Assembly (NCBI GenBank): GCA_913049555.1
Contig: CAJWYM010000027.1
Coordinates: 1-42,218 of the forward strand
From: an uncultured Opitutia bacterium
GTDB lineage: Bacteria; Verrucomicrobiota; Verrucomicrobiia; Opitutales; CAJWYM01
DNA: 42,218 nucleotides
Reading direction: 5' to 3'
Below the pieces are notes generated by a model. The model was not told where the DNA came from. It was given only the letters and a program-made list of their open reading frames with translations, and did no database searches. This document shows positions 37,327-42,218 of this stretch, one piece after another. Each line of letters opens with the position of its first letter. Position 1 is the stretch's first letter. Position numbers and translations under genes: made by a program.

Positions 37327-38925
37327 TTAATTAATGTTAGCTGTGCCACGATCTTCGTGCAGTTTTATCAAGCGCTTGGATCTTTCCAATTGAGAGTCCT
37401 GAAAGTTTACATGATTTTGGGATACATCTACTTGGAAAGCTTTTTGTTTGTTTGTTGGATCGGCACTCAATGCCGATTTAAGATTGGCCAAGCGTTTTTT
37501 CCCATCTTTAATCCAACCCCCCTCCAAAAGTTCGACATAATTTCGGCGAGTCAAAGTGACTGTTTCAGCTTGAACATCCTCCAAGTATTTAGATCTCTTT
37601 TGATCCAACTTACGAACCAATTCAGGCATTTGAGGAGCCAAATCCGAAGCTTCACCCATATCACTGCGAAGGTCAAAAAGTTTCATTTCTAAAGTGTCTA
37701 AATTTTTATGAAGCTTGTATTTGCCTGAGCGAATTACAGACTCGGGATTTCCAGTATGCCATGGAAAATGGAAAATCAAATCCTTGGTATTTCTTTTCAC
37801 TCGACCCAGATTTCCCTTCTCAAAAACATCCCTTAAGCTTCCTCCGTCCAAATCTTTAGGCAAGGGATCCTTTCCTCCAGCTAAGTCATAGAAAGTTTGT
37901 AGGAAATCCCACTGAACGACCGGTACATCGCAGTAACTTCCCTTCTCAATGTTTGGTCCTGTTACTAACGAAGGCATTCTAATCCCACCCTCATAAAGAC
38001 TGCCTTTGCCTTCTTTAAGGGGTCGGTTCCCTCTAAAACCTCCGCCGTTGTCGGAAGTAAATACAACATAGGTGTTCTCACTAATTCCCAATTCATCTAA
38101 AGAATCCAGTAGTTTTCCCAACGCACGATCCACATCATCCAGCATCGCCGCATAATTTATAATCCATCCATGGTTAAACATAGCTACAGGAATTTCTGAT
38201 TCAGGAAGATCGTCTTTCGCTATGTGTTTTTTGCTTTTGGGCAACTTCATATACTTTTCTCTAGTTTCTTTGTGAGAATCATGCCAGATGTGCATTGCGT
38301 AATGAGAAAGTTGCAAATAAAAGGGTTTTTCTGCCTCCACTTGATCTTTCATAAAATCAATACTTTTTTCAGTAAGAGAGGAAATTCTTTTAGGATCCTT
38401 TTCGGGAAGATGGGTTTTTCCATCGTCATCAAAATCACCAGGTCCATTTCCATTAGGACCGTCTGTCACGTCATAACCTGCTTCTTTTGGTTTGATGCTT
38501 TCATTGTGCCACTTCCCAAAATGAGCGGTTTGATAATTAGGATTTGCCTTCTTTAAAGCCTGCGGAATTGTAATTTGTCCAAGATATTGTTTTTGTGCTT
38601 CTATCGCAGAAAGAACTGTATATCGCAAACGACTGGGTGTCATTCCATGAAGGAGACTATTCCTTGAAGGTGCACAAAGAGACGAAGGTGAATAACAGGC
38701 TGAAAGGACCATTCCGTTTTGCGCAAGTCTTTCAACATTAGGAGTCTGATTGAAGTCGCTACGCGTATCATCGTTCCCCTTGATCATAGGCACTGTTGTT
38801 TCTGCCCAGCCAAGATCATCCATGTAAATCAATAAAAAATTGGGTGCCTTCGCTGCATTAGAAATAGAAGTCAATGCCAAGAAGGCGATTGTCATTATTT
38901 TGTTTATTTGTGAGGTTCGTTTCAT
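37327..38925 (-). CDS. Exported sulfatase, formylglycine type (sulfatase B)
   Basis: 532 residues with a signal peptide ending near SISNAA. Metal site MDDLGW (Asp36-Asp37), active-site CAPSR (Cys84-Arg88), FTSDNGGGF, and PLKEGKGSLYEGGIRMP. It shares the whole plan and many motifs with the flanking sulfatases (QTPNVERLAQNG, HYAMHIWHDS), so the three arose by duplication, but they have diverged widely. 44 nt downstream of sulfatase C and 5 nt upstream of sulfatase A, so most likely one transcript. Confidence 0.93.
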   Translation of the reverse strand: MKRTSQINKIMTIAFLALTSISNAAKAPNFLLIYMDDLGWAETTVPMIKGNDDTRSDFNQTPNVERLAQNGMVLSACYSPSSLCAPSRNSLLHGMTPSRLRYTVLSAIEAQKQYLGQITIPQALKKANPNYQTAHFGKWHNESIKPKEAGYDVTDGPNGNGPGDFDDDGKTHLPEKDPKRISSLTEKSIDFMKDQVEAEKPFYLQLSHYAMHIWHDSHKETREKYMKLPKSKKHIAKDDLPESEIPVAMFNHGWIINYAAMLDDVDRALGKLLDSLDELGISENTYVVFTSDNGGGFRGNRPLKEGKGSLYEGGIRMPSLVTGPNIEKGSYCDVPVVQWDFLQTFYDLAGGKDPLPKDLDGGSLRDVFEKGNLGRVKRNTKDLIFHFPWHTGNPESVIRSGKYKLHKNLDTLEMKLFDLRSDMGEASDLAPQMPELVRKLDQKRSKYLEDVQAETVTLTRRNYVELLEGGWIKDGKKRLANLKSALSADPTNKQKAFQVDVSQNHVNFQDSQLERSKRLIKLHEDRGTANIN

Positions 38926-38969
38926 AGATAAGTAAGGATATTGAAGAATGATCTTTGGAATCTATTCTT

Positions 38970-40670
38970 TTAATCCTTGTACTCGGTCCAAGTAGATCGG
39001 GCGATTTTTTCGGCTGTTTTTTTATCTGGGCCATCCCTCCAAGAATATAGATCTCGATGTAAGATTGATTTTTGCTTCTCGACTTGGTGTTTGAAAAGAT
39101 TTTTGTTGAGTTGTTTCAGTAACTCGACTTTTTGATCCTGGAAATCAGAGGGAATTTCATCTTTGAGTAGAGATAATTTTCTTTCAAAGGCTTCCATCGA
39201 TTGCTTACTGAATTTATCCAAAATTTTGTGATGGGCTTGCCTGGATTCCTCTACAGTGCCTCCATTGACTTCTTCGACATATTCTCTGCAAATTCGATCC
39301 ATTTCTTGGACTTTCTCAGGCATTGAAGAAGCAAGGTTGTTTTCTTCTCGATAATCTGTTTTTAAATGAAACAATTTAAATTCACCTGAATTTAAATGGC
39401 GCATTAGTTTATATTCTCCAAGGATAATAGAACTTATAGGCGGATGATAATGACAGGTGTAGTGATGAATGATTCCAGGAGCTTTTCTTTCAACCTTTCC
39501 AAGGTTTCCATTTTCGAAAACACTTCGCAAGCTACCACCGTCCACATTTTCTGAAAGGGGAGCCTTACTCCCGATTAGGTCATGAAAAGTAGGAAAAAAA
39601 TCCCATTGAACAATAGGCACATCACACTCAGAGCCTGCTTCAATTTTGGGTCCTGCGATCAAAGTGGGGACTCGTATCCCGCCCTCATAAATGGAACGCT
39701 TCCCTTCCTGCAAAGGTCCATTGAAACGCATTTGTTTTCCATCCACCATTTTTCTTTCAGCAAACCCACCTCCATTGTCAGAGGTGAATATAATATAAGT
39801 ATTTTCAAGACCGCCTTTGGTCTCAAGTGCATCTAATATGGCTACCAAAGTCATATCCATTTCTTCAACCATGGATGCATAGGTGATCGTCTTGTGTGTG
39901 AGAGATTTTTTATTGTCGATGCCCGAGGATTCAAGTCCCTGATCCATCCATCGCTTTTTGTTTCTCTCGAACGCTTTCTTGGTACAGTAAAAAGGGATAT
40001 GGGGGGCATAATGAGAAACCATCATAAAAAAAGGTTGTTTGCCACAATAATCATAAACAAATTCAGACGAATCTTTCATCAGTGAATACATTCTCTTAGG
40101 GTTGTCTGGAGGGAAAGGAGTCTTTTTCTGTATCGGATCCCAATAAGATCCATGTCCATTTCCATTACCACCAACTTCCCCCGGATTCTCATCTGTAACG
40201 TCAAAACCTGCCTCATCAAACCGACCCATTGCACTGCAACCTTTTCCAAAGTGAGCTGTGATATAATTTTTTCCAGACTCCTTAATCATTTCCGCAAGGG
40301 TCAATTCTGCTTCGTATCCATCTGGACGTTGCAATTCAGACAATACATCGAATACATATCTGTATTGGATTTTTGCAGTGGATTGCCCATGCTGAATACT
40401 CAACCTAGATGCTGTACAAGTGGGGGAAGGAGAGTAAGCAGATGTGTAGCGAGTCCCGATTTTGGCAAGTCGCTCCATACCTGGAGTTTTAATAAAAGAA
40501 TGTTTGGTTGAAGGATCTGCATCCATCATTTGAACAGAGCTATCGGCATATCCAAGATCATCCGCATAAATCAAGATAATGTTTGGACTTTTTACTTTGC
40601 CAGATGTTTTTGAATAAATGAATGGGACGAACAAAAACAGGAAAATGGAACTAAGTACTAAATTTGTCAT
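38970..40670 (-). CDS. Exported sulfatase with CTASR active-site motif (sulfatase C)
   Basis: 566 residues with a hydrophobic signal peptide (LSSIFLFLFVPFIYS). Metal site YADDLGY (Asp37-Asp38). The active-site motif is CTASR (Cys85-Arg89): Ala replaces the usual Pro of CxPxR. The Cys and Arg needed for formylglycine are kept, and CxAxR-type sulfatases are known. FTSDNGGGF, PLQEGKRSIYEGGIRVP and HYAPHIP complete the fold. First gene of the tandem set, with an operator-like dyad about 70 nt upstream. Confidence 0.92.
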   Translation of the reverse strand: MTNLVLSSIFLFLFVPFIYSKTSGKVKSPNIILIYADDLGYADSSVQMMDADPSTKHSFIKTPGMERLAKIGTRYTSAYSPSPTCTASRLSIQHGQSTAKIQYRYVFDVLSELQRPDGYEAELTLAEMIKESGKNYITAHFGKGCSAMGRFDEAGFDVTDENPGEVGGNGNGHGSYWDPIQKKTPFPPDNPKRMYSLMKDSSEFVYDYCGKQPFFMMVSHYAPHIPFYCTKKAFERNKKRWMDQGLESSGIDNKKSLTHKTITYASMVEEMDMTLVAILDALETKGGLENTYIIFTSDNGGGFAERKMVDGKQMRFNGPLQEGKRSIYEGGIRVPTLIAGPKIEAGSECDVPIVQWDFFPTFHDLIGSKAPLSENVDGGSLRSVFENGNLGKVERKAPGIIHHYTCHYHPPISSIILGEYKLMRHLNSGEFKLFHLKTDYREENNLASSMPEKVQEMDRICREYVEEVNGGTVEESRQAHHKILDKFSKQSMEAFERKLSLLKDEIPSDFQDQKVELLKQLNKNLFKHQVEKQKSILHRDLYSWRDGPDKKTAEKIARSTWTEYKD

Positions 40671-41043: not shown

Positions 41044-41583
41044 TCACTTTTTATGCAAATATGCAAGAGCCATATCCCTGTATGAATGATCCGAAAGCGA
41101 TTCTTTTAAATCTGTCAAACGAACCATTAATTCATCTCCAAGACGATTCTTCAAAATTAAAGCCTCTGCTTTTCTTTGTTCCAGTGTTCTGACCGAATTT
41201 TGCCATGAAGCCGTAAATATCAAATGCAATTCATCATGAAATTGCCTGGATCGAATCGCATCCCACTCTCCAAAATCAAACCAAACACTTCCTGAAGGGG
41301 ATCGATCTAGATAAAATGAAAAATCGTTTCCAACCTTGTATCGAATCATAATTTGGCCTGATTCAGGACAAATTTTAACATTTGACGTGTCCACGCTAGG
41401 TATTTCAGATTGATTTTCATTCACTGGAAGGTGGGGCAATCTTTCTGGTTGCTTTGCAAGCCAACGAAAATAGGAAGCCACTGGCAAAAAAATACCCTTT
41501 GACTCCGAACACTGAAAGGCAGTCAATCCATCTTCCAGTGAAATTCTTGACATTGCTTTGTGTGACGCAACAGGACTCCGCAT
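41044..41583 (-). CDS. Double zinc-ribbon-like protein with lost cysteines
   Basis: 179 residues. Two segments follow the TFIIB-type zinc-ribbon pattern (CPxC ... CxxCxGxWLP / GvWLDxGEW). Repeat 1 is MRSPVAS ... QCSESKGIFLP (1-34); repeat 2 is ICPESGQIMI ... DRSPSGSVWFDFGEW (71-107). Of the eight expected Cys only Cys25 and Cys72 remain, most others being Ser, so zinc binding is improbable. The aromatic and Gly framework is kept, arguing for a real but metal-free fold rather than recent decay. A helical tail (about 110-179) follows. The ATG at 41583 fits the family start (MKCP in zinc-binding relatives). Function unknown; neighbours do not inform it. Confidence 0.6.
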   Translation of the reverse strand: MRSPVASHKAMSRISLEDGLTAFQCSESKGIFLPVASYFRWLAKQPERLPHLPVNENQSEIPSVDTSNVKICPESGQIMIRYKVGNDFSFYLDRSPSGSVWFDFGEWDAIRSRQFHDELHLIFTASWQNSVRTLEQRKAEALILKNRLGDELMVRLTDLKESLSDHSYRDMALAYLHKK

Positions 41584-41806
41584 TCGATAATGGATATTGG
41601 GATTCCCGAAAACTTCAATCTTATTTTATTCATTAAAAAATATAGATCTTGATAGAATGACTTTAAAAATCATAAAGATCATAAGCACTTTGCCCTTGTA
41701 ATTTTTAGTTCTGTGAAGTGTTTGTATTTGTAATAAAAATACGGAAATCAAAATCATGAGACCGTTTTTGCAACTTTTATTCTCCGAAAAAATAGAGTCT
41801 CTTCCT

Positions 41807-42016
41807 TTATTTATTGAGCTGATTTTCATATTTCCTAGCTTCTCCTAAACTTTCAAATTCTCTCGACCAGACTATTTCCCATGGACGATACTTCGCTGTC
41901 CACTTACTGATTCCCTCATTATGCTGCTTCAAGCGGACCTCTACATCTTCACTCACTCCAATATAAAAACGTCCCGATTCATTTCTCAATATATACACGA
42001 AATAATTCATACTCAT
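41807..42016 (-). CDS. GIY-YIG nuclease, C-terminally truncated copy
   Basis: 69 residues of a small single-domain GIY-YIG nuclease (UvrC/YhbQ-like fold). Seen: FVYIL with Tyr8, YIG at 18-20, Arg28 in VRLKQHN, His32, and Glu64 in RKYENQL, so the core catalytic residues are present. It stops at ENQLNK. The paralogue at the right edge continues KKQKGGDGFYRITGL; aligning the DNA shows the copy-2 codon CAA (Gln) matched by TAA here, with recognisable decayed homology beyond. So this copy ended through a nonsense change and may be partly active or a pseudogene. Start ATG at 42016 (a second ATG at 42010 is possible). Confidence 0.75.
   Translation of the reverse strand: MSMNYFVYILRNESGRFYIGVSEDVEVRLKQHNEGISKWTAKYRPWEIVWSREFESLGEARKYENQLNK
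41817..41871 (-). repeat. 55-bp direct repeat, copy 1 (in GIY-YIG gene)
   Basis: Identical over 55 of 55 bases to 42164-42218 at the right edge, an offset of 347 bp. Both copies code for the C-terminal helix of a GIY-YIG protein. The match reaches the window end, so the true repeat is longer. Exact identity implies recent duplication or gene conversion. Confidence 0.95.
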
Positions 42017-42023
42017 AAATGGT

Positions 42024-42054
42024 GAAGGCCGTAAGTTTTAGACTTACGGCCTTC
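42024..42054. terminator. Perfect 13-bp hairpin between the GIY-YIG copies
   Basis: GAAGGCCGTAAGT (42024-42036) pairs with ACTTACGGCCTTC (42042-42054) around a 5-nt loop. It is GC-rich and 8 nt from the start codon of GIY-YIG copy 1. On the minus strand it follows the tRNA-like element, so it could terminate that transcript or, being close to the start codon, limit translation of copy 1. There is no long T-run. Confidence 0.6.
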
Positions 42055-42056
42055 TT

Positions 42057-42100
42057 GGGAGCAGGGCTTGGATTTGAACCAAGGATCCCGCATGCGGGAT
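42057..42100 (-). other. tRNA-3'-half-like structured element
   Basis: Read on the minus strand directly after the GIY-YIG copy 2 stop codon: a perfect 16-bp self-palindrome (42085-42100, like a long variable arm), then a consensus T-arm with stem CTTGG, loop TTCAAAT and stem CCAAG (42083-42067) including the invariant GGTTCAAATCC, then an acceptor-like 3' strand ending in CCCA (42060-42057). No matching D-arm, anticodon stem or 5' acceptor strand is found upstream, because that DNA codes for GIY-YIG. So it is not a complete tRNA: either an integration-derived tRNA fragment or a tRNA-mimicking element. Confidence 0.5.
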
Positions 42101-42218
42101 TATGAGCCAGAACGCCTCAAACCTGTAATCCGGTAAAAACCGTCTCCACCCTTTTGTTTCTTTAGCTGATTTTCATATTTCCTAGCTTCTCCTAAACTTT
42201 CAAATTCTCTCGACCAGA
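42100..42218 (-). CDS. GIY-YIG nuclease copy 2, C-terminal 38 residues (5' end outside window)
   Basis: The minus-strand frame enters at the right edge and ends at TAA (42102-42100). It encodes the C-terminal helix with the catalytic-Glu context RKYENQL, then KKQKGGDGFYRITGLRR. To my memory, a Lys/Gly-rich tail of the KxQKGGxGFY type is common in small GIY-YIG proteins, so this copy looks intact where copy 1 is broken. Extrapolating the 347-bp offset, its start should be near position 42363, outside the window. It is directly followed by the tRNA-like element. Confidence 0.75.
   Translation of the reverse strand, partial: WSREFESLGEARKYENQLKKQKGGDGFYRITGLRRSGS
42164..42218 (-). repeat. 55-bp direct repeat, copy 2
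   Basis: Partner of 41817-41871; 55 of 55 bases identical and continuing past the window edge. Confidence 0.95.

Follow-up and report, generated by a model that had tools for sequence, protein, structure and literature searches.

Tandem GIY-YIG copies around an initiator tRNA fragment in an Opitutia bacterium: a probable miniature mobile element of tRNA transcription units

Tandem nuclease copies and a tRNA fragment at a contig end

The window analyzed here is a 42,218-bp contig from the draft genome (3.1 Mb, 102 contigs) of an uncultured Opitutia bacterium, and it carries a compact cassette at its right end. All parts of the cassette are read on the minus strand and, from the right edge inward, are a first GIY-YIG nuclease gene (copy A), a partial tRNA gene (tRNA'), a hairpin and a second GIY-YIG gene (copy B). 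The features are as follows.

42100..42218, minus strand: GIY-YIG copy A, truncated by the contig end to its last 38 codons; the open frame matches the copy B protein
42164..42218, minus strand: second copy of a 55-bp perfect repeat, in the C-terminal half of the nuclease gene; it ends at the contig end
42102-42100, minus strand: stop codon TAA of copy A, closing the C-terminus WSREFESLGEARKYENQLKKQKGGDGFYRITGLRRSGS as read from the frame, within the tRNA-derived GGCTCATAA
42056..42108, minus strand: tRNA', a partial copy of an initiator tRNA-fMet gene, aligned to the intact tRNA-fMet of L098 and L101
42108-42100, minus strand: anticodon-loop part of tRNA', GGCTCATAA
42086..42099, minus strand: palindrome TCCCGCATGCGGGA, 14 nt, in place of tRNA CCTGAAGG (3' anticodon stem and variable loop)
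42085-42056, minus strand: TCCTTGGTTCAAATCCAAGCCCTGCTCCCA, the T-arm and 3' acceptor strand of tRNA-fMet, to CCCA
42024..42054, minus strand: 13-bp perfect hairpin, from its fold and its relatives the duplicated terminator of the tRNA-fMet transcription unit
41807..42016, minus strand: GIY-YIG copy B of 69 aa, which retains the conserved GIY-YIG residues and has lost the C-terminal KGG tail
41817..41871, minus strand: first copy of the 55-bp perfect repeat
41782..41820, minus strand: behind copy B, decayed remnant of a coding end for the nuclease C-terminus (score 12)

The open reading frame at 41807-42016 matched the GIY-YIG family PF01541 at 6e-16, and the conserved Y, Y-G, R, H-N and E columns are present in its GIY-YIG alignment. 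The first-pass annotation had described two GIY-YIG copies that share 55 identical bases at an offset of 347, and this was borne out: 41817-41871 and 42164-42218 form a direct repeat identical at 55/55 positions, and the copy at the contig end is true coding sequence, of which the window holds the last 38 codons. The C-terminal form of copy A, KKxKGGxG..GS before the stop, is common to three related loci (L098, L099 and L101). Copy B is the decayed copy of the two, as its frame closes early (NQLNK, then stop). The remnant that follows it scored 12 against a shuffle mean of 8.7, a score reached by 3/300 shuffles, and no tRNA' was recognizable after this remnant.

Mismatch begins immediately to the left of the 55-bp repeat, and the right end of its second copy is the contig end, so that 55 bp is a lower bound on a repeat that may be longer. 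An identity of this length at a contig end suggests a k-mer break in the assembly. We consider it extremely improbable that the tandem order itself was produced by misjoining at the contig end; the exact stop of the identity at that end would fit such an artefact, but the copies differ outside the repeat and the same order lies inside a 77-kb contig of a related genome, G053.

The T-arm-like fold that had been seen between the nuclease copies is present, and the region 42056-42108 aligns to tRNA-fMet. Of the tRNA-like tail noted there, only 42056-42108 is tRNA-derived; the left part (~42109-42152) is the coding end of copy A. A reading of GGGTGGAGACGG, the 5' part of the tail, as a tRNA 5' half was rejected for the same reason. 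ARAGORN and Rfam called no tRNA on the tail, because only the 3' part is present and the anticodon arm is replaced. The perfect 13-bp hairpin was confirmed at 42024-42054 (-22.5 kcal/mol, z -8.5, 0/200 shuffles); a terminator scan made no call at this hairpin, whose own U-tract is weak.

Adjoining the cassette, 41044-41583 (minus strand) holds a 179-aa ORF without a Pfam match. Further along the window, 37327-40670 (minus strand) holds two adjacent ORFs of similar sequence, the second of which (38970-40670) matched the Sulfatase family at 3e-31.

The initiator tRNA locus in related genomes

When the tail and hairpin were used as a nucleotide query, 3' halves of tRNA-Met(CAT)/fMet were matched in 33 of 52 related genomes. 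Three of the matches lie at one locus (L008/L098) of Opitutia bacterium UBA4506 (G021, same order), around a GIY-YIG gene that is 59% identical to that of the window. This locus consists of an intact tRNA-fMet, a terminator hairpin, a palindrome-bearing tRNA' with terminator, the GIY-YIG gene, and again a palindrome-bearing tRNA' with terminator. In G053, of the same genus as G021, a single 77-kb contig contains tRNA-fMet, terminator, a full GIY-YIG gene, a tRNA' that bears two palindromes, a further terminator, and another GIY-YIG gene, which is truncated after ~45 codons (L192). To judge from the order of its parts, the G053 locus is the layout of the window plus the left part that the window is missing.

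The closest relatives of the window protein (L098-L101) all stand behind tRNA-Met(CAT). In the genome of the window itself, a tRNA-fMet gene is broken off in the T-loop at the end of another contig (C23). It is oriented as it should be if copy A were the continuation of C23, and its T-stem is equal to that of the window tRNA' over the common bases; the only Met tRNA called in this genome is an elongator. From these two contig ends we infer that an intact tRNA-fMet probably lies upstream of copy A, beyond the contig edge. In another UBA4506-genus genome (G040) fMet is located elsewhere, and a synteny-based empty-site comparison for fMet is unusable. Downstream of the G021 cassette (L008:1880-2300, contig C93) there is a repeat of ~130-300 bp that occurs in >20 places in the UBA4506 genome (also on C13, C62, C74, C75, C55 and C21).

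The same type of hairpin stands behind the tRNA and behind tRNA' in both L008 and L192. Because two loci without the nuclease (L030 and L037) have this hairpin directly after tRNA-fMet, we take the window hairpin to be a duplicated terminator, and the same two loci led us to reject it as a nuclease-specific site. The unit that had been proposed, nuclease plus tRNA 3' end plus hairpin, stands as a duplicating and probably mobile one, but its hairpin is the duplicated tRNA-fMet terminator and not a special element.

In the class to which the window belongs, tRNA' usually has a palindrome that replaces the 3' anticodon stem and variable loop, with the form TCCCGC..GCGGGA in Verrucomicrobiota and TCCGCC..GGCGGA in Bacteroidota. 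Palindromes of the same position and type as that of the window were found in L008, L099, L101 and L192. Tails of this kind keep company with the nuclease: the palindrome-bearing tail adjoins a GIY-YIG gene at 5/6 loci (the window, L008/L098, L099, L101 and L192) and stands without one at L049, which is not the picture of a tail that lacks GIY-YIG at most sites. In several Verrucomicrobia the stop codon of the ORF is anticodon-loop sequence (GGCTCATAA for fMet, GGCTGTTAA for Asn). In L010, L011 and L192, the T-loop and 5' anticodon stem of tRNA' contain additional short palindromes, and it looks as if palindromes repeatedly replace functional tRNA segments at these loci.

Short palindromes beside a nuclease gene are also found in REP/RAYT systems, but the nuclease there is a Y1 transposase and here a GIY-YIG protein. 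A search of the 3.1-Mb genome of the window with a four-base-spacer pattern (the spacer of the window palindrome is two) gave one imperfect site on both strands and no dispersal, and with this pattern a REP-like dispersed palindrome is unsupported in that genome.

The arrangement also resembles islands at tRNA 3' ends, which have an intact tRNA on one side and a 3' tRNA fragment on the other. The cassettes differ from such islands in that they hold one gene in a ~350-bp unit, show no recognized integrase, and have a palindrome in the tRNA fragment. Under this explanation the locus would be the remnant of an integrase island in tRNA-fMet, with tRNA' as attR and the nuclease either as cargo or mobilized in trans by tyrosine integrases. 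Ordinary integrative elements apparently do use tRNA-fMet in this order, attR-like fragments in L031, L038 and L043 start at the same GGCTCATAA border, one copy in another genome (G056) sits behind a partial tRNA 3' end, and 42056-42108 itself fits an attR-type 3' tRNA fragment except that its core is replaced by the palindrome. The palindrome leaves the putative crossover core intact in none of the nuclease-linked fMet tRNA' copies seen, and no integrase-like ORF was recognized by eye in the fMet-linked flanks, which look ordinary (e.g. lipB); we regard an integrase remnant as very unlikely. The fragments in L031, L038 and L043 start GGCTCATAACC, have no palindrome and seem to be attR sites that belong to ordinary integrase elements; they share their border with the tRNA' copies linked to GIY-YIG genes.

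Linkage to tRNA and tmRNA genes across phyla

When 84,980 species genomes were scanned with nothing but a protein pattern ([HW]TAK[HY][RK]PW), which under-samples other branches of the family, 79 loci were returned, many of them from metagenome-assembled genomes (MAGs). These loci span Verrucomicrobiota, Kiritimatiellae, Bacteroidota, Alphaproteobacteria, Acidobacteriota, Armatimonadota and others. A tRNA or tmRNA ends <300 nt upstream on the same strand in 59/79 and on the opposite strand in 0, while the other 300-nt bins around the 79 loci hold 0-1 tRNA/tmRNA per strand. In a separate search of related genomes, 13 of 20 loci lay within 400 nt of a tRNA. Across the two sets, the linked RNAs are Met, Pro, Gln, Ala, Ser, Asn, Val, Arg, Gly, Glu, Lys, Leu, Phe, Tyr, His and tmRNA. 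Members of the same nuclease family stand directly behind tmRNA in L013, L106, L108, L114, L117, L158, L160, L165, L174 and L175. A distant GIY-YIG paralogue in the genome of the window (L005) is not tRNA-linked.

On a nuclease tree built from few columns and with many weak forks, the isotype of the host RNA clusters (30 changes against 50.7 when shuffled, 0/200), and the window protein falls, on this weakly forked tree, into one group with four verrucomicrobial proteins that are linked to tRNA-Met. At 15/60 loci the tRNA 3' part, or the leader described below, is repeated downstream of the gene, compared with 2/295 swapped control pairings. Tandem nuclease copies occur independently in Moheibacter lacus (L103), L099 (one copy internally deleted) and L192, which speaks against a single ancient duplication, the outcome that had been set against the first-pass annotation of a mobile unit.

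Related copies also occur at different sites within one genome. In a Kiritimatiellae genome, L113 and L116 share a stretch of 447 bp at 97% that begins with the last 12 nt of tRNA-Glu and runs through to the stop codon, and the sequences immediately beyond it are unrelated; one copy of the pair is on an intact tRNA-Glu and the other is not. An apparent IS91-like transposase is near both copies, and transposon-assisted movement of the L113 copy is possible. Related copies stand at tRNA-Ala and tRNA-Gly in genome G012; in G056, a genome of one contig, they stand at tRNA-Ala and a second, partial tRNA 3' end. At the orthologous tRNA-Ala(CGC) of one family the gene is present in 4 of 29 genomes; in the others the sequence diverges immediately behind CCA, several of them retaining no more than a leader-like stretch. 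Patchy occupancy of tRNA-Ala together with intragenomic copies would fit spread into alleles that lack the element, although this is a fit and not proof. Since dN/dS between related copies is 0.03-0.28, the protein is maintained by purifying selection.

These observations bear on a simpler account, in which slippage, or recombination between repeated terminators, produced a tandem duplication of the tRNA 3' end, its terminator and a small nuclease gene already resident there, and the nuclease has another job. The repeated hairpins and tRNA pieces are good recombination substrates, the unit is short (347 bp), and copy B is decaying. Ordinary duplication of this kind would have to contend with same-strand linkage to many tRNA isotypes and tmRNA across many phyla, with copies at different tRNAs in one genome, with patchy occupancy and breakpoints at CCA, and with tandem copies that arose independently elsewhere; we consider it unlikely.

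In the larger class of loci, the nuclease gene is preceded by a leader, whereas the class of the window has a plain terminator at this position. The sequence after the tRNA CCA starts NNNT[TA]CG in 53/71 tRNA-linked loci, and the reverse complement of NNN recurs in two later segments in 36/53 and 42/53 of these, as opposed to 0.1% and 4% when triplets were swapped between loci. This covariation is strong, at the DNA or RNA level. The full pattern, NNNTTCGC ... T[AT]C-rc(NNN)-TGGC ... A-rc(NNN)-TG, occupies the first ~100 nt after CCA in L106, L116, L128, L015 and ~50 others, and it matched no Rfam family at gathering thresholds. Leader-like stretches without GIY-YIG were seen at tRNA-Ala in L200, L201, L205, L206 and L214.

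We advance only tentatively, as something we would not bet on, the idea that the small tRNA/tmRNA-linked GIY-YIG genes are a distinct cross-phylum minimal mobile element in which the structured leader (NNNTTCGC after CCA) is a working part, either as the DNA site that is recognized and copied or as an RNA partner. If true, this would be a new transposition principle built from one 80-residue nuclease and host tRNA genes.

The leader, with its strong covariation, could also be taken to mean that the nuclease acts on RNA, cleaving or processing tRNA, tmRNA or its own read-through transcript as a regulator or toxin-like protein, with the linkage a matter of co-transcription. Co-orientation with tRNA and tmRNA and a position directly after CCA or the terminator would suit this account. 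It leaves the tRNA' duplications and the copies at several tRNA genes unexplained, and the nearest solved relatives, UPF0213 and the DNA-branch nuclease SLX1, along with weak homing-endonuclease matches, point to DNA; action on RNA is in our estimate quite improbable.

Proposed mechanism and known systems

Taken together, we think that the locus is probably best read as a miniature mobile element, here duplicated in tandem and partly decayed. It would be a free-standing homing-type GIY-YIG cassette that parasitizes tRNA transcription units. The element would be a GIY-YIG gene of about 70-95 codons, probably promoterless, lodged behind a tRNA (here initiator tRNA-fMet) and probably expressed by read-through of the tRNA terminator, in effect sharing the promoter of the tRNA. 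In the relatives its anatomy is intact tRNA, terminator, GIY-YIG, tRNA' and terminator, with the unit of GIY-YIG, tRNA' and terminator sometimes in tandem. The nuclease would cut within the 3' part of a tRNA gene or close to it, and repair by recombination through the repeated tRNA-3'/terminator sequence would copy the cassette into an empty tRNA locus. The same repair may alternatively end in tandem duplication, as with SegB in phage T6. We propose that the host is unharmed because the upstream tRNA stays intact, and that the palindrome probably prevents tRNA' from functioning as a tRNA, from being cut or from serving as a partner in recombination.

The closest model for this process is SegB of phage T6, a GIY-YIG nuclease that lies among tRNA genes, cuts inside them at the motif RAWTSGAAC, and must be present if the tRNA-segB segment is to be amplified in tandem (PMC13096335). 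The segB gene of T4, which is inserted in the tRNA cluster, is counted among the active free-standing endonucleases (PMC2988022). We read the SegB motif as the T-arm, with the reverse complement GTTCSAWTY, and the T-arm of the window, GTTCAAATC, is one position off this motif. Both systems have a GIY-YIG gene among tRNA genes of varied isotype, and in both a tRNA part and the nuclease gene are amplified in tandem. The products that a SegB-like process should leave are present in the bacterial cassettes: an intact tRNA, a duplicated tRNA 3' piece, tandem units and copies at other tRNAs. They differ in that SegB is borne by T-even phages, whereas the cassettes encode proteins of 70-95 aa, lie on bacterial chromosomes in the orientation of the one tRNA or tmRNA that precedes them, and have tRNA' plus a palindrome, or a covarying leader, which SegB does not; SegB is also much longer than these bacterial proteins. 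The ORFs of 69-95 aa are almost only GIY-YIG domain, and since no separate DNA-binding region was recognizable beside this core, the choice of site is left unexplained. For the same reason, and with cleavage inferred, we file the cassettes apart from SegB members. A phage search gave only <37% matches and viral contigs gave none, so that no close match to a phage, virus or Rfam origin of the element or leader was found in these searches.

Among known families, Pfam and NCBIfam returned only the general GIY-YIG family and weak similarity to homing endonucleases. The NCBIfam Group I intron endonuclease model scored 20.7 bits against a cut-off of 56 and an Rfam search found no intron family around the nuclease, and we set this assignment aside. 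Matches to PADLOC defence families were weak and partial. The best solved-structure matches in a PDB search were 1zg2, 1ywl and SLX1 (UPF0213/Slx1-like), and the small UPF0213 and Slx1-like GIY-YIG nucleases have the same single-domain core as the cassettes. The relevant passages of a GIY-YIG superfamily survey (PMC1564403) do not mention linkage to tRNA genes, and literature searches, mostly outside subscription papers, returned no description of small chromosomal GIY-YIG genes linked to tRNA or tmRNA.

The probable reading as a mobile cassette would extend the idea behind SegB, a GIY-YIG nuclease that lives off and amplifies tRNA genes, just reported for phages, to bacterial chromosomes of many phyla and to a far smaller enzyme. 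It could account, in a way that can be tested, for the tRNA pseudo-fragments and the small GIY-YIG ORFs beside tRNA and tmRNA genes, and it would place these cassettes among the smallest candidate selfish elements whose site of insertion is defined, here the position behind the CCA of the tRNA or behind the terminator.
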